DNA of 64,000 bases from NCBI GenBank assembly GCA_016785955.1, contig JAEUWH010000024.1, positions 1 through 64,000 on the forward strand, read 5' to 3'. Origin of the DNA: Pseudobdellovibrionaceae bacterium. GTDB lineage: Bacteria; Bdellovibrionota; Bdellovibrionia; Bdellovibrionales; Bdellovibrionaceae. Of this stretch, positions 35,109-44,117 are shown piece after piece. The notes beneath the pieces are model-generated. The model was given only the letters and a program-made list of their open reading frames with translations. It had not been told where the DNA came from and searched no databases. Position numbers and translations under genes: made by a program. The number at the start of each line of letters is the position of its first letter. The first letter of the stretch is position 1.

Positions 35109-36344
35109 ATGAATTCTCTAGCCGCACCTCTTAAAGTCGATATTTCGGATATTCAAAAAGCTCACGGGCTTTTAAAACCCATTGTTAAGTACACCGATCT
35201 GGATTTGTCACTTTCGGCAAGCCAGATGTTTGGTCGAAATATTTATTTGAAATTTGAAAATACACAGCGCACGGGATCTTTTAAAATTCGTGGTGCGTAC
35301 AATAAAATTATGAATCTTTCGCCCGATGAAAAAGGCCGCGGCGTGGTTGCTAGCTCGGCCGGAAACCATGCTCAAGGTGTGGCATTGAGTTCAAAGCTGG
35401 CAGGGGTAAAAGCAAAGATCGTGATGCCAGAAACAGCGCCACTCAATAAAATTATTGCGACTCGCCATTATGGCGGTGAAGTTATTCTTAAAGGCGAAAT
35501 ATATGACGACGCATACGAATACGCTAAAGAACTTGAGAAAAAAGAAGGCTATACGTTCGTGCATCCATACCAAGACTCTCATGTTATTGCAGGGCAGGGG
35601 ACGATTGGATTGGAAATTTTAAGTCAACTGCCTGATGTTGACAGTGTAATTGTACCCATTGGTGGAGGTGGTTTAATCAGTGGGATTAGTTTAGCGATTA
35701 AGACATTGAAACCTTCGTGCAAAATTTTTGGTGTTCAATCGGATCAAACTCCGGGCATGAGTCAATTGTACCGAAATCAACCATCGGAGCCAAGAAGTAA
35801 GCGGATTACAACGATTGCAGATGGCATCGCGATTAAAAAACCAAGTCAGGAAATGTGTGATTATTTTATTTCCAAGTACGTGGATGATATTGTCACGGTG
35901 ACGGACGATGACATAGCGGAAGCGATTGTCTATTTGGTTGAGCGCATGAAAACGGTAACAGAAGGGTCGGGGGCTGTCAGTTTTGCGGGTTTGATGAAAC
36001 ATCAGTTGGAATTTGGGAAAAATACCTGTGTGTTGCTTTCGGGTGGCAATATTGATCTTAATATTATTTCGAAAGTCATCGAGCGTGGCCAAATAAAACG
36101 GGGCCGCATTGCCAAGATGTCAGTTGTTGTGGAAGATATGCCTGGTAATTTGCAAAGACTAACCCAGATTATTGCCGTCGAAAAAGCGAACATTTTAGAG
36201 GTTAACCATGATCGAGTTACACATGGGTTGTCGCTACGAGAAACGCGAATCGATTTTTTTCTGGAGACCAACAGCTTTGAACAAATTCAAAAAATTGAAT
36301 CAGAGATTGAAAAAGTTGGTGGGAAAATTCTTCGCATCACCTAG
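35109..36344 (+). CDS. ilvA: Threonine ammonia-lyase
   Basis: A 411-residue PLP enzyme converting threonine to 2-oxobutanoate. RTGSFKIRGAYN holds the PLP lysine, SSAGNHAQGVA and PIGGGGLISGI bind substrate and phosphate, and LSGGNIDLNII follows. A C-terminal ACT-like domain (VVVEDMPGNLQRLTQIIAVEKANILEV, about residues 335-405) suggests allosteric control. Length and domain plan fit the single-ACT group (TdcB/IlvA-short type), so biosynthetic versus catabolic use is not certain. The stop overlaps the convergent XRE gene by 4 bases. Confidence 0.92.
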   Translation: MNSLAAPLKVDISDIQKAHGLLKPIVKYTDLDLSLSASQMFGRNIYLKFENTQRTGSFKIRGAYNKIMNLSPDEKGRGVVASSAGNHAQGVALSSKLAGVKAKIVMPETAPLNKIIATRHYGGEVILKGEIYDDAYEYAKELEKKEGYTFVHPYQDSHVIAGQGTIGLEILSQLPDVDSVIVPIGGGGLISGISLAIKTLKPSCKIFGVQSDQTPGMSQLYRNQPSEPRSKRITTIADGIAIKKPSQEMCDYFISKYVDDIVTVTDDDIAEAIVYLVERMKTVTEGSGAVSFAGLMKHQLEFGKNTCVLLSGGNIDLNIISKVIERGQIKRGRIAKMSVVVEDMPGNLQRLTQIIAVEKANILEVNHDRVTHGLSLRETRIDFFLETNSFEQIQKIESEIEKVGGKILRIT

Positions 36345-36625
36345 CTGTTACTTTTAGCTATTTTCTTACCTTGTGAAATTTCAGATTTTAAATTGGTTTC
36401 GTATGACTTAAGCAAAATTTCTAAGATTTTCTTTTCTGGAATTCCTAGTAAAATAATCAAACGGCCTAGAATATTATGGGGGACCTTGGAGAGACCTCTT
36501 TCAAACAATGAAATAAATTGTGTAGAATCATAACCCAGCTTTTGAGACAATTCGAGTTGAGTCATATTTTTTTGTTGTCGATAATTTCTAATCAGTGTGC
36601 CGAGTTCATAATGAGTGCTATTCAT
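36341..36625 (-). CDS. XRE-family regulator, copy A
   Basis: A 94-residue helix-turn-helix protein: IRNYRQQKNMTQLELSQKLGYDSTQFISLFERGLSKVP is a Cro/C1-type DNA-binding domain, followed by a helical tail with KKILEILLKSYE. It is a close paralogue of the gene at 36718, most similar in the central 50 residues. It ends convergent with ilvA and is separated by 92 bases from copy B on the same strand. It lies about 0.6 kb from the ThiF-like gene and may regulate that locus. Confidence 0.82.
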   Translation of the reverse strand: MNSTHYELGTLIRNYRQQKNMTQLELSQKLGYDSTQFISLFERGLSKVPHNILGRLIILLGIPEKKILEILLKSYETNLKSEISQGKKIAKSNS

Positions 36626-36717: not shown

Positions 36718-37002
36718 CTATGCTGAATCTTTAGCTGCTTTTTTACCTGATAAAATCTCAGCCTTTAAGTTAAATTCATAAGCCTTCATCAATGTATCAA
36801 GGACCTTCTTCTCGGGAATACCTAAAATTATGATTAGTTGACCTAAAACATTATGAGGAACCTTGGACAGGCCTCTTTCGAACAGAGAAATAAATTGAGT
36901 AGAGTCGTAGCCAAGCCTTTGAGCCAAATGTAACTGTGTTAAATTTTTTTTGATTCGATAGTCTCGTATTAAGGCACCTAGCTCGCGACGTATTTCTGGC
37001 AT
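36718..37002 (-). CDS. XRE-family regulator, copy B
   Basis: A 94-residue Cro/C1-type regulator, paralogue of the 36341 gene. The shared core YDSTQFISLFERGLSKVPHN is identical apart from neighbouring substitutions. It is divergent from the ThiF-like gene at 37206, so the two share a 200-base regulatory region that contains a 9-bp inverted repeat. The tandem pair probably arose by local duplication. Confidence 0.82.
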   Translation of the reverse strand: MPEIRRELGALIRDYRIKKNLTQLHLAQRLGYDSTQFISLFERGLSKVPHNVLGQLIIILGIPEKKVLDTLMKAYEFNLKAEILSGKKAAKDSA

Positions 37003-37205: not shown

Positions 37206-38054
37206 ATGAACGTTAAGAGGTTATCTCAGGCAGAATTGGAACACTATTACAAAAGAACTCTACGTAACCATTTTTGGGTTAATGGCAAGTCGGGACAAAG
37301 CAAGATTCACGATTTTCGTGTTGGCGTCGCCGGATTAGGTGGGATGGGATCTAATATAGCCGAGATTTTTTGTCGACTCGGTGTGGGAGCTATGCGGGCC
37401 ACAGATCCTGACACCATTGAAAGAACTAATATAAATCGTCAAGTCATTGCGTTCGAGGATACGGTGGGACACAAAAAAGCGGAAGCTTCTATTAATGAGC
37501 TGCGCAAAATTTCGTCTGATATCAATTTGGAATTTTCGACTGTGGGGATCCAAGAAAATAATGTGGAAGCTTTTGTCAGTGGGCTGGATGTTATTATTAA
37601 TGAAATCGACGTTTTTCATATCGATAAACAGATACTTTTGCTTGAAGCTGCGCGTAGAAGAGGAATCCCTGTCTACACGACCTTAGTCGTAGGGCTGGGT
37701 GTGCATTTATACAAATATGATCCAGCGGGGTCTTATACCCCTAAAGATTTTTTGGAAATTATAACTGTTAATAAAGATGTGCAAACATTAATTGATCGAT
37801 TGGGGCAGCCACTTCCTGTTTATCTACAGGGAAATACATTGAAAGATTTTGTGAAGGAAGTGGGTGATGGCAATGTTCCTATTTTTGGAGCGAGTACCTA
37901 CCTGGGACAATCATTGTTGGCGATTCGTGTATTGTTCGACTTTGGATTTTTAAGAATTGAAAACAACATACCTAAAACACCAAGTCTGCCTCAATTTCTT
38001 GTACTTGATCCTCTCACTTTGCAATTTGAGGTCGCCGAGGTGGACAGGACGTAA
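37206..38054 (+). CDS. ThiF/E1-like adenylating enzyme
   Basis: A 282-residue E1-superfamily protein. I start at ATG 37206, three bases after AGGAGG; an ATG at 37194 overlaps that site. The Rossmann loop GLGGMGS is at about 43-49, followed by DPDTIERTNINRQ with the nucleotide-binding acid and arginine, and the GHKKAE lysine. These residues adenylate a C-terminal carboxylate in ThiF, MoeB and related enzymes. No conserved catalytic-cysteine or zinc CxxC motif is visible, so it may adenylate without forming a thioester. It is followed after 1 base by a hydrolase gene. Confidence 0.8.
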   Translation: MNVKRLSQAELEHYYKRTLRNHFWVNGKSGQSKIHDFRVGVAGLGGMGSNIAEIFCRLGVGAMRATDPDTIERTNINRQVIAFEDTVGHKKAEASINELRKISSDINLEFSTVGIQENNVEAFVSGLDVIINEIDVFHIDKQILLLEAARRRGIPVYTTLVVGLGVHLYKYDPAGSYTPKDFLEIITVNKDVQTLIDRLGQPLPVYLQGNTLKDFVKEVGDGNVPIFGASTYLGQSLLAIRVLFDFGFLRIENNIPKTPSLPQFLVLDPLTLQFEVAEVDRT

Positions 38055-38055
38055 T

Positions 38056-38823
38056 ATGACTGCGGTTCAAAAAAATAGTCTCTTTCTGCATATGGGGCCA
38101 GGGTTTCATGCACAGATTGAGGGCGAGCTGTTTTCAACGGCGCACCCGGATGTTATTTTTTGGAGCCAACCAAAGGTTTCTTCGTTTGCACTTTTACGAA
38201 GTGAGGTCGAGGCCTTCGTAAGTAGTTTGCCAAGCGAAAAAATTGATCTGATTGCGCACAGTTTTGGGGCGCAGCTAGTTTTGGGTTTAATGCAGAAACT
38301 TCCACAGAAGATTGGTCGTATTACTCTTTTAAATAGCGCCGTGGATCCATTTGAGTGCTTTTTGAATTTAGGTTTACAGTTAAGAATTGTGACGCCGGCG
38401 CAGTTGCGGGACATACGTGCCGGTGATGTTGCTAAAAAAATGGAGTATATATTTAAAGTCGCAACAATGCCTGGGTTTGACGATCATTATTGGTACTCTG
38501 GTCAAAAAAAGAAAGACTTTGCAGAGATTTTCGCCCGATTTCCCCAGCTTGATGTTGGTGTATTTGCAGAAATTTTCTCGGATTATCTGCGCTCGCGAAT
38601 CCAATTTCTAGACTCTATAAAACCTTGGGATAAAAGCGTGGAAATATATACCAGTGAAAATGACAATTTACTGGACTTTGAAAAAGACGTTTTTCCATGG
38701 AAACAGTTTTTTCCAAAAGCGAGGTGGGTCATGCTGAAGAATTCAGGGCACTATGCTTTGTTTGAAGACAAGGCTCTATCTGCGACTGTTTTTCAGAGAC
38801 ACAGAAAATTAGACGGATTTTAA
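38056..38823 (+). CDS. Alpha/beta hydrolase
   Basis: A 255-residue alpha/beta-fold hydrolase. LFLHMGPGFHAQ near the start resembles the HG oxyanion segment, the nucleophile elbow is LIAHSFGAQLV (serine in AHSFG), and NSGHYALFED near the end gives the catalytic histidine. It is coupled to the ThiF-like gene (one base between). An esterase or thioesterase acting on the product of the same pathway would fit, but the substrate is unknown. An upstream in-frame extension overlaps the ThiF gene and is rejected. Confidence 0.75.
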   Translation: MTAVQKNSLFLHMGPGFHAQIEGELFSTAHPDVIFWSQPKVSSFALLRSEVEAFVSSLPSEKIDLIAHSFGAQLVLGLMQKLPQKIGRITLLNSAVDPFECFLNLGLQLRIVTPAQLRDIRAGDVAKKMEYIFKVATMPGFDDHYWYSGQKKKDFAEIFARFPQLDVGVFAEIFSDYLRSRIQFLDSIKPWDKSVEIYTSENDNLLDFEKDVFPWKQFFPKARWVMLKNSGHYALFEDKALSATVFQRHRKLDGF

Positions 38824-38861
38824 ACACGACTTTTTCTATACTACACGAACAGTAAATTATT

Positions 38862-38876
38862 AAACTATAATAGTTT
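38862..38876. promoter_or_regulatory. 15-bp perfect palindrome over a TATAAT box
   Basis: AAACTAT, A, ATAGTTT forms a perfect palindrome at 38862-38876 and contains an exact -10 hexamer TATAAT at 38866-38871. No good -35 lies at normal spacing. The acyltransferase ATG follows at 38893 with GGGAGGA at 38881-38887. Overlap of palindrome and -10 is typical of a repressor operator. A half site AAACTAT also occurs at 36678, in front of XRE copy A. Confidence 0.55.
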
Positions 38877-38892
38877 GCATGGGAGGACTCTT

Positions 38893-39639
38893 ATGTCTAA
38901 TTTGAGATTGGTAGTTCTTGATTACGCTCTTAAACACATACAAAATCAAGCAACTCGGCAAGCATTAAATGATTTAGTCGTAATGAAACAGGTCAATTTT
39001 CAGCGAACTGATCCGAACTATGTGGTCACCGATAAACATGATATTATTGGAACTCATTATTTAGTATATGATACAAGTGATTTATATGAGCCAAAAGTAG
39101 TGTTTGCTTTACGTACTACGTATGGCGATCGGTCTCAGCAGCACCGATTGAATACTCCATTTCAAGATTTACTACCTAAAATATCGGATCGTTTGCAGAC
39201 TGCGTATCAAGATTTTTACAAGACTAGGCCAGTTGTTGTGGACTGTAATTCTTGGTGTGTTGATCCTCAATTTTCTAAAAAATCATCAGGTTTAAAGTTG
39301 GCCGATATTGGTTATGCAATGGTATTTTTGCATTTAACCCGGATGGGGCACAACCATTTTATAGGTTGTACCAACGAACGTTATCGGGCTAGTCGTTGGT
39401 TGGAAAGCGTCGGTAGTTATACGCGTGGTTACGAATTTGTTCATCCCGTGGTGCCAGATCCTCATATGATGATCATGATTGAAAAATTTGATGAAGCGCA
39501 TATGAAGACGGTTTATGAAGAAAACAAAGAATTATTCGACCAGCTGTACGACCTTGTACCAGAGAATAGTCCCTATTCAGATATGCCTATGGCCATTCAG
39601 CAAATATTTTATGGAGCTAGGTTAGGGAAAGCAGCGTAA
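38893..39639 (+). CDS. GNAT/LuxI-like N-acyltransferase
   Basis: A 248-residue protein with a GNAT-like plan. The N-terminal part HDIIGTHYLVYDTSDLYEPK, then VVFALRTTYGDR, resembles the start of acylhomoserine-lactone synthases and related acyltransferases. The C-terminal half has LADIGYAMVFLHLTRMGHNH and GCTNERYRASRWLESVG, like the helix and strand that bind the acyl-CoA or acyl-carrier substrate. It may make an acylated signal or acylate a peptide or amino acid. It follows the E1-like and hydrolase genes and has its own palindromic promoter. Family identity is tentative. Confidence 0.5.
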   Translation: MSNLRLVVLDYALKHIQNQATRQALNDLVVMKQVNFQRTDPNYVVTDKHDIIGTHYLVYDTSDLYEPKVVFALRTTYGDRSQQHRLNTPFQDLLPKISDRLQTAYQDFYKTRPVVVDCNSWCVDPQFSKKSSGLKLADIGYAMVFLHLTRMGHNHFIGCTNERYRASRWLESVGSYTRGYEFVHPVVPDPHMMIMIEKFDEAHMKTVYEENKELFDQLYDLVPENSPYSDMPMAIQQIFYGARLGKAA

Positions 39640-40519
39640 GCGGTGATCTTGGAAATGTGACCGTGCAAACAGAATGTATCCCGTCAGGCTTTACCTGATG
39701 GGATACTGTTGGAATTACGGGAGGTAGGCCAGACAGATATGGAAACCAACCCAGCAACAGTTGACGGTAGCGGAAAAGTTTATTCATTTTGCATTCTTGC
39801 CACTCAAAATGATTATGAATTTCATAAGGAAGAAACGTAATCATAGAATAATGATTTTTGTCTAATTCGGATTTATAAATAAAGTTGTCATCAAACAACT
39901 TAAAGTTATTTGCCAGTGTTAGATAGCAATCGTAATAATTTGTTGCTTGTTTGAATTTCATAAATAACGGGGATTCAGACCAGCTTAAAAATAGAAGACC
40001 AGAAAGGGAATCAACTTCATTTTGAGTGAAACCTTGAGATTCCAAAATAGCGAGTAAATCGATGAAATAATTTAAGCTAATTCGGTTGTTCAGGTTTTGA
40101 TAAAATAAAGGTGAAACATTTAATTTGTATGCAATAGAATCCGCAAAGTGTTGGCCGCGTGAAATGGCTAGATATTTGAAAATATGCGCGGACGTGCGGA
40201 TATAGCTAAATTGATTGTGAGAGTATTTTTCTGGCAGAGCCAGTGGATCTACAAAAATACGGGTACGTAAGGATTCGGCATCGTATTTACCCAACATAAT
40301 TTGTTCTTCTGTAACTCCTAAAAACTGAGCAACTGTTTTCAATTGAATTTTGGAGGCACAAAGCTCGCCATAGGAACTCCACCACTGTAAAAAGTCCGAG
40401 CTAGACATTCCCAGCGCCTCGGGCGCTCGATTTAAAGGTAAGCCTGTGTCTAAAATTAAATTGCGGACGCTTTCGCTTTGGGATTTAAGCAAAGAGCTAG
40501 GCTGGGTAATTTTCATCAA
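39617..40519 (-). CDS. Regulator with possible V4R-like sensor domain
   Basis: A 300-residue protein without signal or membrane segment. Residues about 12-75 look like a small helix-turn-helix region (SRAPEALGMSSSDFLQWW and KTVAQFLGVTEEQI segments). The C-terminus, GWFPYLSGLPPV followed by SHQVKPDGIHSVCTVTF, resembles the end of V4R / heme-NO-binding-type ligand domains (conserved Gly-rich, His and Cys pattern). It starts inside the end of the adjacent XRE gene (23-base overlap) so the two are co-translated. It is convergent with the acyltransferase gene, overlapping it by 23 bases. Confidence 0.5.
   Translation of the reverse strand: MMKITQPSSLLKSQSESVRNLILDTGLPLNRAPEALGMSSSDFLQWWSSYGELCASKIQLKTVAQFLGVTEEQIMLGKYDAESLRTRIFVDPLALPEKYSHNQFSYIRTSAHIFKYLAISRGQHFADSIAYKLNVSPLFYQNLNNRISLNYFIDLLAILESQGFTQNEVDSLSGLLFLSWSESPLFMKFKQATNYYDCYLTLANNFKLFDDNFIYKSELDKNHYSMITFLPYEIHNHFEWQECKMNKLFRYRQLLLGWFPYLSGLPPVIPTVSHQVKPDGIHSVCTVTFPRSPLTLLSLT
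39676..39706. other. 13-bp inverted repeat inside a coding end
   Basis: GTATCCCGTCAGG (39676-39688) pairs with CCTGATGGGATAC (39694-39706), one G-U pair and a five-base loop. It lies in the 3' end of the minus-strand regulator and about 36 bases after the acyltransferase stop. There is no T run, so it is not a clear terminator but could act as a mRNA end-stabiliser. Confidence 0.5.
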
Positions 40520-40838
40520 TTTCCTTGTAGAGGCTCATTAAATATTGAACGTGTGTGATTCGACTCATTTCGATAAGGGAATTTGAGTCGAGTTCAAAAT
40601 AGCTGATAAAAAAATCAAATTGCTCTTGAGAAAGATTTTTATGGCCAGTTTCGATCATCCGCAAAACTCTGGGGGACAGACCGGTAGCAAGAGACACATC
40701 TTCGTAGGATCGGCACATTTCTCGGCGTTTTTGACTAATATGCAAGCCAAGAATCTTTTTAAAAAAACGCTTGTTAAAGCTAGAAAGCTTATCGATTTGC
40801 ATACATTGTCTATAAGCTTTTTTGCTTCTTTTTTCCAC
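40497..40838 (-). CDS. XRE-family helix-turn-helix protein
   Basis: A 113-residue regulator. SQKRREMCRSYEDVSLATGLSPRVLRMIETGHKNLSQEQ is a Cro/C1-type DNA-binding domain. The residues before it (RFFKKILGLH) form an amphipathic helix. It is the upstream partner of the 300-residue regulator, whose start codon is inside its 3' end. The pair probably forms a two-protein regulatory unit for the neighbouring genes. Confidence 0.75.
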   Translation of the reverse strand: MEKRSKKAYRQCMQIDKLSSFNKRFFKKILGLHISQKRREMCRSYEDVSLATGLSPRVLRMIETGHKNLSQEQFDFFISYFELDSNSLIEMSRITHVQYLMSLYKEIDENYPA

Positions 40839-41009: not shown

Positions 41010-41390
41010 ATGACGACGCAAAGTAAATTAGGTGAAATATATAAACGGGTTTTGTTGATTGAAGACAATAGTGAAATTTGCGAGTTTTACAAAGATTTTT
41101 TTGATTCAGAAGGTCTATCAATCGATATTTTTAATCAAATTCCTTGGGATCAGAACGAACTCACAGACTCTTATGATATCCTTATTTGTGATTGGCTTGT
41201 GGGTGTTCAATCCTCGCAGCTTTGGCTGACAGATCTATATGATAATTGTAAATTACCAGACGTGACATTGGTATCTACGGGAATGTTTGGGGTGGAAGAT
41301 GAGATTTCTCATCTTCCCGTAAAGGTTATTTATAAACCTTTTGATTTTGAATATCTAAAAAAAGTTATTGTTCAATATAACCAGTTTTAA
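41010..41390 (+). CDS. Stand-alone response-regulator receiver
   Basis: A 126-residue CheY-like receiver domain with no output domain. LLIEDNSE carries the acidic pocket (E18, D19), ILICDWLV has the phosphoacceptor D61, TLVSTG has the switch serine or threonine, and VIYKPFDFE the conserved lysine. It may act by protein contact. It is convergent with the HyuB-like gene and overlaps it by 26 bases. No histidine kinase lies in the immediate neighbourhood. Confidence 0.82.
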   Translation: MTTQSKLGEIYKRVLLIEDNSEICEFYKDFFDSEGLSIDIFNQIPWDQNELTDSYDILICDWLVGVQSSQLWLTDLYDNCKLPDVTLVSTGMFGVEDEISHLPVKVIYKPFDFEYLKKVIVQYNQF

Positions 41391-42750
41391 TGTCGATGAT
41401 GTCACCGGGATTAATATTGAGAGTAGCGAAAGGATCCGTTAATCTGCGTCCATTTATGGACAGAGTGGGTGCAATAAAATTGATTTTGTTTTTACCCAGT
41501 TTCAATTTGGCAGGAAAGCTGGGGTTAATGAACGCGAATGTCACAGGATTTATACAAGAAAATTGCAAGTGATTTTGATAGTCATTCACTTCTTTAGCTT
41601 TTGAGGAAGGGAATTCAAGTTGACATAGTTTTACCTCTAAACCTAGGTCTGCGAATTCCGTATAATCAGGAATACTTTCTGCCCCCGGAGTGGGGCGCGA
41701 GTTCAATAAAATTTCGAAACCATTGGTTACAGCCATCGACCCAACAGGTTTAGCGTTGGGAATAGCAAACTGGCGAGTTCGATTTAAGTTTTGCAGTTGG
41801 AAATGGGGTTTGGCGATCATGTATGGCTTTAAGGAACTTCGATCTACGACACAAGCCATTAAAGCCTGGTTGATTAAATCAGGTCCGCAATAGTCGGAAT
41901 AAAGTTTATTAGAAATGTTTTTAGAATTTATAAATGATTGGGTTGGCTTGGCAATTTGGAATAAAGCAAAAGTAGCATCGTTCATCATATCGCTAAACTG
42001 AAAATAGTCTGCAAAAAAATAAAAACAGATCGAATCCGTAGTGGAGTCGGACATTTGAATGAGATTGTGCGATGTTGTTCCTTGGAAATCAATGCGTATC
42101 CCCAATTCAGATGTCGAGGCTTTAATTTTCAAGTTTGAAAGTGGCGCAAATTCGTATTCAGTTTGCGAGGACGAGTAGGCCTTGGATTTTATAGATTTTA
42201 ATGCGCTTTGGGCCGAGGAACTTAAGAAGTATTTCTGTAACTCTTTGCTGGAAAAATTCTTATTTGCTTTAAGCAGTCTCTTGAAATCTAATTGGAACAA
42301 TTCAATTTTTTGAATTGTTTTCGTTATAAGAGAATTGACTTCCTTTGGGCAGTCCGGCTGGCTAGTTAAGTTTTCAAGAAGTTGAATGTTAATTCGGCGA
42401 TTTTCAACAATTGGGACTGGTGGTATTTTAATTACTTTTTGTGAAAAATCCCAGGGTAGATTAAAAACTTCTTCAATAGCAAAATGAAATGACTCAACTG
42501 AAAATAAAAACTGAATTCGATTTGAGCCGCCACAACCCAAAAGTGAATCATTATGTGCGACCACCAGTGATTCGCTCCATGGGAAAAAATTCTTAAGAGC
42601 TTTAAGGCCACTCATCAAACCAACTGAATTGCTAGAGCAACTAGTTTTTGTATGTAAACATTTAAAATCAGAATTAAATATTGCGACACTTTGAAATGGT
42701 CGGCTGATCGATTTAAGAAAAAAGTGAAAATCAGAAGTGCGTATTTCCAT
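41365..42750 (-). CDS. Diverged HyuB-like (hydantoinase B / oxoprolinase) protein
   Basis: A 461-residue protein. After a diverged N-terminus, the region NRRINIQLLENLTSQPDCPKEVNSL and following TIQKIELFQLDFKRLLK matches the HyuB order of elements, then GIRIDFQGTTSHNLIQMSDS corresponds to the HyuB substrate-binding strand, and APTLSINGRRLTDPFATL with LNINPGDIIDIKTG to its C-terminal glycine-proximal end. The usual TPGGGGYG tail is absent. The family hydrolyses 5-oxoproline or hydantoins with ATP. Its ATG overlaps the HyuA-like TAA as TAATG. Many motif changes make its activity doubtful. Confidence 0.58.
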   Translation of the reverse strand: MEIRTSDFHFFLKSISRPFQSVAIFNSDFKCLHTKTSCSSNSVGLMSGLKALKNFFPWSESLVVAHNDSLLGCGGSNRIQFLFSVESFHFAIEEVFNLPWDFSQKVIKIPPVPIVENRRINIQLLENLTSQPDCPKEVNSLITKTIQKIELFQLDFKRLLKANKNFSSKELQKYFLSSSAQSALKSIKSKAYSSSQTEYEFAPLSNLKIKASTSELGIRIDFQGTTSHNLIQMSDSTTDSICFYFFADYFQFSDMMNDATFALFQIAKPTQSFINSKNISNKLYSDYCGPDLINQALMACVVDRSSLKPYMIAKPHFQLQNLNRTRQFAIPNAKPVGSMAVTNGFEILLNSRPTPGAESIPDYTEFADLGLEVKLCQLEFPSSKAKEVNDYQNHLQFSCINPVTFAFINPSFPAKLKLGKNKINFIAPTLSINGRRLTDPFATLNINPGDIIDIKTGYIEQ

Positions 42751-44117
42751 TAGTTCGCTCGCGTTCGGCCTTGAAGAAGAGCCAAGTGGGCTTTCAATAG
42801 TTTTTTCTGAGAAACAAAGACTGTATTTTTTGTATTAAAAATTTCCTTCGCGCGTCGTTCAAAGCTTGGAGGAAGGTCTCCGTAAAAAACAACAGTCTCG
42901 GTGTTAATTAAAAGACTAGATTCAATCAGTATTCTGTCCCATATTACGGTCTTAAACTCATCGAATGTTTTTTCAGTTGCATGCGGTCCCGTCGAGGATC
43001 GAGCGAGTGCCCAAAAAGAATCGCGAATCTTTTTTTGTAATTCGGGGGTTGAAAACTCGGCATTCAGGATATCATAAACGCAAGGGATCTTGCCGCGCCC
43101 CAAGCACATAGGTCCCGGCTCAAAACTTTCTTCCGATTGGCTGATCTCGATATCTTCAAATGAATTTAAATGAAATGAATTTGTCGGTTGGATTTCTAAA
43201 TCAATGCGCTTGCGGGCTACTAGCGAGGTCGCTCCCCAAGGGCTTTGCCAAGGTTCGATTTTATTGAGCCAAACCGAAAAGTTTTCTAAGCCTAAATGGA
43301 CAACTGAAAATTGATCGGGCAGTTTCAATTCGCTTTTGCCTACTTCAAAGAATGCATCCTCTAAGGCGAATAAGCCGGACAAAATGTTGCGAGAACCTTT
43401 GCCTTCAAAACTATTGTTTACAAATGATATATTTTCGATAGTTGTGAACTGTTGAAGAGTCTCTACAATCTCGCTTCTCATTTCGTTAAAGGTTCCGGCT
43501 AGGGAAGCTTCGATCAAGCATGTTCGCCAATCAACGGCACTGCTATCTTTGCTTGTTTCCAATCGATCAAAAACTTCAAATTGGTTTTCGATCAGAATTT
43601 TTTTCAACAAGTTGTGATGGATTGGGTTCTTATGTGCATTCACTAAATTCAAACAGACGCGTTTGGCTTCTTTCTTTTTCAAGCTTTCAATAAGTTCATT
43701 CACTTCATTGAGGTCTATGGGCAATTGCACGTTTCCATCATAAGAAATTTTTTCGTTAACCGGGAATATCATGTCGAAGGATGACAAATCAGGAGCCGAT
43801 TTTAGGAAAAACAAACTTTCATTTTTATTATAGTGATGCGAACCTAACCAGTTTTCAAAACCTTTGGTCACAACTTGCGCAACAGATCCACCTAATTTGT
43901 ATTTAAAAATACGTTCTAAGTAACGATAGCTTACAAAAACAGAATCAATTTTAACTTCGCCAAAATTTTGAACGAGTTTTGGAAATTTGTTTTTAAAAGG
44001 ATCTTTTATATTAAAAAAAGAGCCGCTAAATAAAATAGTACCGGACGGTCGTTCCGTAAAAATGACTTCGTAAAAGGATTCACCAAAAAAAAGACCGACA
44101 TCAACCTGTTTAGTCAT
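42750..44117 (-). CDS. Diverged HyuA-like (hydantoinase A) protein
   Basis: A 455-residue protein resembling the ATP-binding HyuA half of oxoprolinase-type enzymes. The clearest match is FEPGPMCLGRGKIPCVYDILNAEF, which follows the DPGPACYGRG...TVTDAN pattern. The N-terminal phosphate loop is VDVGLFFGESFYEVIF where family members have a GGTFTD-type sequence, so the ATP-binding loop appears changed. It is directly followed by the HyuB-like gene with a one-base overlap, the normal order. It is divergent from hisC with a 49-base gap. Confidence 0.58.
   Translation of the reverse strand: MTKQVDVGLFFGESFYEVIFTERPSGTILFSGSFFNIKDPFKNKFPKLVQNFGEVKIDSVFVSYRYLERIFKYKLGGSVAQVVTKGFENWLGSHHYNKNESLFFLKSAPDLSSFDMIFPVNEKISYDGNVQLPIDLNEVNELIESLKKKEAKRVCLNLVNAHKNPIHHNLLKKILIENQFEVFDRLETSKDSSAVDWRTCLIEASLAGTFNEMRSEIVETLQQFTTIENISFVNNSFEGKGSRNILSGLFALEDAFFEVGKSELKLPDQFSVVHLGLENFSVWLNKIEPWQSPWGATSLVARKRIDLEIQPTNSFHLNSFEDIEISQSEESFEPGPMCLGRGKIPCVYDILNAEFSTPELQKKIRDSFWALARSSTGPHATEKTFDEFKTVIWDRILIESSLLINTETVVFYGDLPPSFERRAKEIFNTKNTVFVSQKKLLKAHLALLQGRTRAN

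Follow-up and report, generated by a model that had tools for sequence, protein, structure and literature searches.

Pairs of an acyltransferase and an E1-type enzyme have been described in acyl-oxazolone and N-acyl-dehydrotyrosine clusters (PMC10404671, PMC12856293, PMC12479983). In the acyl-oxazolone pathway an acyltransferase (TyzA, TrzA or OxzA) N-acylates an amino acid, the ThiF proteins contained in TyzB, TrzS and OxzB cyclise the N-acyl amino acid driven by ATP, and a flavin oxidase desaturates the product (PMC10404671, PMC12856293). OxzAB originates from Pseudoalteromonas rubra and TrzAS from M. tuberculosis. The physiological role of acyl-oxazolones is a major unresolved question, and signalling was suggested from their structural similarity to AHLs (PMC12856293). 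In quorum sensing, luxR and luxI genes of convergent topology are reported to overlap by 2-79 bp (PMC3386692), and in Ralstonia the methyltransferase PhcB makes the signal (PMC8578825).

The locus studied here lies in a window of 64,000 nucleotides from a Pseudobdellovibrionaceae bacterium (genome G000, contig C55). Three co-directional genes on the plus strand encode a ThiF/E1-type adenylating enzyme (37206..38054; PF00899, E=1.3e-30), an alpha/beta hydrolase (38056..38823; PF00561, E=9.5e-10) and a 248-aa protein, X (38893..39639), assigned by its fold to the LuxI/FeeM-type acyltransferases and representing a new family. The earlier note had placed this trio correctly, and both Pfam families were confirmed. 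It had missed the minus-strand genes, namely those of small HTH proteins and of a regulator of about 300 aa, Y (39617..40519), which is convergent to X and overlaps its 3'-end by 23 bp (39617-39639). A single base separates the E1 stop from the start of the hydrolase gene, which was described as translationally coupled to E1, and 69 bases lie between the hydrolase gene and X.

As in OxzAB, TyzACB and TrzAS, a gene for a LuxI/FeeM-fold N-acyltransferase is found in one cluster with that of a ThiF-type adenylating enzyme presumed to act on a carboxylate with ATP. TyzA, like X, also matches FeeM and BjaI structurally. In contrast to the acyl-oxazolone clusters, the locus carries an alpha/beta hydrolase and a dedicated HTH-V4R regulator, X belongs to another sequence family, and the X-linked E1s form clades of their own. 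No nitroreductase-type flavin oxidase (PF00881) was found near X in 25 genomes with X and E1. By a strict test the system is therefore outside the acyl-oxazolone pathway, and since no oxidase gene is near X, a dehydro-oxazolone product cannot simply be assumed. The earlier note knew of no described system with exactly this trio. In the light of the pairs cited above, the novelty is smaller on the E1-acyltransferase side than that note supposed, and larger on the regulatory side, with X and Y.

The acyltransferase X and the regulator Y

X has no significant Pfam match and no NCBIfam family. When its AlphaFold model (pLDDT 83, pTM 0.84; the other four models scored lower) was compared with the PDB by Foldseek, the 13 best folds were all AHL synthases, among them BjaI, MesI, EsaI, RpaI and LasI, or the N-acyl amino acid synthase FeeM. 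E-values ranged from 2.4e-5 to 3.6e-4 and TM-scores were moderate (0.43-0.56 by query length). The label LuxI/GNAT-like, a guess when it was first given, thus found support in the fold search. At the sequence level, homology to LuxI/FeeM is weak and only just detectable. Alignment of 56 X with 14 FeeM sequences by hhalign gave P=1.8e-4 and a probability of 49%, spanning the GNAT core, whereas an earlier three-sequence FeeM profile had reached only 6%. FeeM was the best Pfam match, shared by two of the 56 members, but was weak (best E=0.0066), and none of the 56 reached the curated cut-off of the FeeM family PF21926. A PDB sequence search with the X profile gave no match. Autoind_synth (PF00765) did not match the X of the window at E<=1 and was absent among the families matched by the 56 members. 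In the alignment of these 56 homologues (mean column identity 26%) D50 is invariant, and K32, H55 and G174 are nearly so. The D-x-x-D and Arg positions of what we take to be the LasI motif look alike in X; their register is unverified and they were not counted as evidence. On its modelled fold, X is an acyltransferase family of the AHL-synthase/FeeM type that is separate in sequence, with substrate and product being inferred.

FeeM-type clusters resemble the locus in the fold of the acyltransferase and in having ThiF proteins as genomic partners. They differ in that they encode a nitroreductase and that no V4R regulator has been described there, and X stays below the FeeM cut-off. FeeM proteins themselves are frequent in the order (99 of 140 genomes) and often adjoin ThiF genes. 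In G001, a relative of the same genus, FeeM-PilZ fusion proteins adjoin ThiF genes (L047:3346-6717, L048, L049); the L047 locus, which has a weakly matching nitroreductase-like neighbour, resembles a complete oxazolone-type cluster.

The AlphaFold model of Y (pLDDT 86) consists of an N-terminal helical bundle resembling a DNA-binding domain and a C-terminal sensor-like domain. The latter matched H-NOX, TRAPP Bet3 and the VirS sensor domain in Foldseek searches, with weak E-values (4e-3 and up). Although the Y of the window has no Pfam match of its own, 16 of 51 homologues matched V4R (best E=4.8e-9) and 3 matched HTH_3, and further HTH models related to HTH_3 match several of them. Neither a LuxR-type ligand-binding domain nor a LuxR-type DNA-binding domain was matched by Y; V4R and an XRE-type HTH were found instead. 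Because of the sensor-like fold and these matches in homologues, Y is taken to be a one-component HTH-sensor regulator and not a LuxR protein; ligand binding and target genes have not been shown. The arrangement of an AHL-synthase-fold protein adjoining a one-component regulator, convergent and with a short 3' overlap, resembles LuxI/LuxR. A canonical LuxI/LuxR system was nevertheless rejected, since X lacks an Autoind_synth match and Y lacks LuxR domains; the extra enzymes and the phylum, Bdellovibrionota, are further differences. The system is not LuxI or LuxR by sequence but probably works like both LuxI/LuxR and the oxazolone pathway.

A small HTH protein (40497..40838, minus strand; HTH_3 E=4.9e-4, below cut-off) overlaps the 5'-end of Y, and its homologues adjoin Y in several X loci. 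Divergent from E1, a 94-aa XRE-type HTH protein is encoded (36718..37002, minus strand; HTH_31 E=2e-5, below cut-off), homologues of which are found at many X loci of the order. Its paralogue, also of 94 aa (36341..36625, minus strand; HTH_3 E=2.3e-5), is kept within the genus. Beyond Y, two overlapping minus-strand genes (41365-44117) with weak matches to hydantoinase B and A/oxoprolinase evolve fast, with 56-67% identity within the genus versus 82-87% for the flanking ilvA.

A single-sequence scan of genome contigs with X found nothing, and the recurrence of X became visible only by profile search. X was found in 8 of 60 relatives, with Y convergent to it in 7 of these, and in 18 of 141 genomes of the order. 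With a wider profile, X was found in 85 of the 369 genomes of the phylum, which represent 48 of 182 genera, Bdellovibrio sp. qaytius being among the named carriers. Outside the phylum X was found in one Nannocystineae MAG. All neighbour counts are based on 60 X loci that were fetched and annotated. Y is located at most two genes from X in 53 of these and is convergent in 49. Of the 44 convergent pairs without a gene in between, 32 have an overlap of 4-69 bp, close to the range of luxR/luxI (PMC3386692). One X clade is without Y (L148, L162, L167). In L148 the next gene encodes a haem-oxygenase-like protein (PF14518), of which L162 and L167 have homologues, and which possibly represents another type of tailoring.

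The E1 enzyme, the hydrolase and alternative cassettes

The adenylation-site residues GxGxxG, NxNRQ, K91, D128 and D135 are invariant in 16 X-linked E1s. The E1 of the window contains a single cysteine, C56, which is shared by 2 of the 16 and hence not conserved; the conserved catalytic cysteine expected of a ubiquitin-like or sulphur-transfer E1 is not present in this set. The earlier note had seen no obvious catalytic cysteine and had preferred simple adenylation to sulphur or ubiquitin transfer; the first observation is correct and the second view fits. Judged by its sequence, the enzyme is a ThiF-family protein with a predicted intact adenylation site, and adenylation without such transfer fits its residues; cyclase activity is inferred. 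Full-length PDB matches were the entries 9EGB-D, on which no relevant literature was found. SAM-driven lactonisation, as by a LuxI AHL synthase, would require no E1 partner, which is an inference on our part.

Of the 30 ThiF genes closest to the window E1, 18 have an X or FeeM gene at a distance of at most 6 kb (X in 5 cases, FeeM in 13 others), against an expectation of about 1% from gene numbers. Apart from one long-branched exception, X-linked E1s fall into three exclusively X-linked clades, separate from the FeeM-linked E1s, and the E1 of the window belongs to a clade of X-linked E1s only.

The hydrolase contains a Ser-Asp-His triad and an HGGPG-like motif. The triad is intact in all 19 family members aligned, which come from both E1- and methyltransferase-linked loci. 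In the X clade of the window an alpha/beta hydrolase is present at each of the twelve loci that have E1. Eleven of these hydrolases fit the hydrolase model, that of G121 only weakly, and in G017 the place is taken by an esterase-family enzyme. The hydrolase of the window type is not obligatory, since it was not found at the seven X-E1 loci with a PLP enzyme. In G004 and G119 the hydrolase gene is represented by two overlapping ORFs (L043:2362-3119; L077:8940-9735), due to either a sequencing-error frameshift or decay.

In other genera, too, E1 and hydrolase accompany X, with shuffled gene order and orientation, so that both checks proposed in the earlier note, recurrence of the trio and a fold match of the acyltransferase, came out positive. 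Some X-Y loci are without E1. Among the 60 loci, 27 have an E1, 24 a SAM methyltransferase, one both (with a weak methyltransferase match) and 10 neither. The mutual exclusivity of E1 and methyltransferase is strong by Fisher's test (p=1.2e-7, strict overlap 0), which ignores relatedness. With correction for relatedness, about 3 informative pairs remained, all opposite (p=0.25), and power was low with so few pairs. In the X tree the cassette labels switch repeatedly, and at least five changes for E1 are forced by the supported branches alone. At one G081 locus two X genes share one E1. A second X clade combines E1 with a PLP enzyme, often with a hybrid histidine kinase. We conclude that X and Y form the core unit, to which E1 plus hydrolase is added as one cassette among several that can replace each other. 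Neutralising the carboxylate may be the common purpose, as the methyltransferase alternative suggests without proving it. A methyltransferase-made signal is known from PhcB; that enzyme uses a hydroxy fatty acid and no LuxI-like step is involved, its signal is sensed by a histidine kinase, and the locus of the window has E1 and not a methyltransferase.

Within the genus, the E1-hydrolase cassette was exchanged at one chromosomal site. G000 and G005 carry type A E1s (75% identity) and G001 and G004 type B (78%), with 27-29% between the types. X of G005 groups with those of G001 and G004, and its X and Y are closest to those of G004 (71% and 88%), though its E1 groups with that of G000. The flanking ilvA is 82-97% identical throughout the genus. 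G002 and G003 have only the right flank in common, and no clean insertion site could be shown.

Several other genes were observed near X. Fatty-acid desaturase genes, pointing to acyl-chain tailoring, are found in G005, G004 and G001 (L042:10534-11424, L043, L044), and a different one in G034 (L040:6842-7816). A FadL-type outer-membrane transporter, a possible uptake or export partner, is encoded near the X module in G005 and G001 (L042:3105-4436; L044:4346-5689); a homologue (75-78%) in G000 is located on another contig, C34, close to a second ThiF gene (L050:4954-8729). PGA_cap genes (capsule synthesis-type metallophosphatase) adjoin X in two distant lineages (L139:7957-9177; L101:3495-4832). 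A diverged second X-Y system comprises X, E1 and a CysK-like PLP-dependent enzyme, mostly with a GAF/hybrid histidine kinase (L081, L082, L083, L169, L079, L080); an unusual amino acid substrate might come from these PLP enzymes.

Proposed function and competing explanations

Support for the anatomy of the locus is strong, and what is inferred is the substrate, the product and the role in signalling. Our favoured interpretation, held with slightly more confidence than doubt in the absence of biochemistry, is a synthase-receptor module that is LuxI/LuxR-like in its working but built from other parts: X makes an N-acyl amino acid, E1 cyclises it, the hydrolase opens it and Y senses it. Going by its fold, X would acylate an amino acid at its amine, with acyl-ACP or acyl-CoA as the donor. 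Going by its family and the Oxz/Tyz/Trz precedent, E1 would adenylate the free carboxylate, and the activated acid would cyclise to an azlactone (oxazolone) or, with a side-chain nucleophile, to a lactone or lactam; any of these would be neutral and diffusible. Where a methyltransferase replaces E1 in other members of the phylum, it may cap the same carboxylate as a methyl ester. The hydrolase, putatively an esterase, lactonase or thioesterase on the capped product, might open or de-esterify it and so set its lifetime, or else act in release. Y would bind the product in its V4R/H-NOX-like domain and regulate transcription via its HTH. The idea of an acylated small molecule put forward in the earlier note gains from the fold of X and from the recurrence of E1 and hydrolase; that it is a signal remains an inference. 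Whether this amounts to an undescribed cell-cell signalling system throughout the phylum, in which the signals of LuxI-fold synthase X and HTH-V4R receptor Y are diversified by exchanging E1 cyclase and methyltransferase as carboxylate-capping cassettes at one locus, with turnover by a hydrolase common to both, is more tentative, and we do not yet lean towards it.

The product may instead be a secreted bioactive or stress metabolite, such as an N-acyl amino acid or oxazolone weapon or lipid, with Y as a pathway-specific regulator and the hydrolase serving self-protection or tailoring. The variable tailoring genes, including desaturase, acyl-CoA dehydrogenase, methyltransferase and PLP enzyme, are reminiscent of biosynthetic clusters, related N-acyl tyrosines are antimicrobial and the oxazolone role is reported as unresolved (PMC12856293). 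We consider this unlikely without dismissing it: the tailoring genes vary, but X has a regulator of one and the same family beside it in 53 of 60 loci, the convergent overlap is like that of luxI/luxR, and no dedicated exporter or resistance gene recurred among the neighbours examined.

That X and E1 are merely unrelated neighbours, with X-Y as a regulatory unit and E1-hydrolase belonging to separate metabolism, appears improbable. The independent exchange of the cassette in the genus, seen in G005, and the X-Y loci without E1 speak for it, but 27 of the 60 X loci have an E1 nearby, with varying gene order and orientation, and almost all of these E1s are in exclusively X-linked clades. Similarly improbable is a pathway directed at a peptide or protein, of the MccB/PaaA or the bacterial ubiquitin-like kind, with E1 adenylating a peptide and X acylating it. 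MccB, PaaA and ubiquitin E1s have the same fold as E1, but neither a Ubl, E2 or JAB gene nor one for a precursor peptide was seen near E1, its sole cysteine is not conserved, its closest ThiF relatives pair with FeeM or X, and the PADLOC matches were generic E1-E2 hits reflecting only the ThiF domain of E1-E2 proteins; ubiquitin-like conjugation was rejected. GNAT toxins paired with HTH antitoxins exist, and small XRE-type proteins are near X, but a toxin-antitoxin module with X as GNAT toxin and the HTH proteins as antitoxins is scarcely credible and was rejected, as the fold of X ranks LuxI/FeeM ahead of small acetyltransferases, X has no PADLOC match, Y is a 300-aa convergent V4R protein and metabolic enzymes recur alongside.

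To our knowledge, no system composed of synthase, capping enzymes and sensor has been described in this predatory group. Since the pair of acyltransferase and ThiF enzyme adjoins a dedicated regulator of the small-molecule-sensor type, the idea of oxazolone signalling becomes directly testable here. If the synthase-receptor interpretation is true, the locus would be a candidate for a self-produced quorum-sensing circuit in predatory and other Bdellovibrionota. It would also give a function to protein families that so far have none, and X-Y loci may serve as a handle for new metabolites across the phylum.
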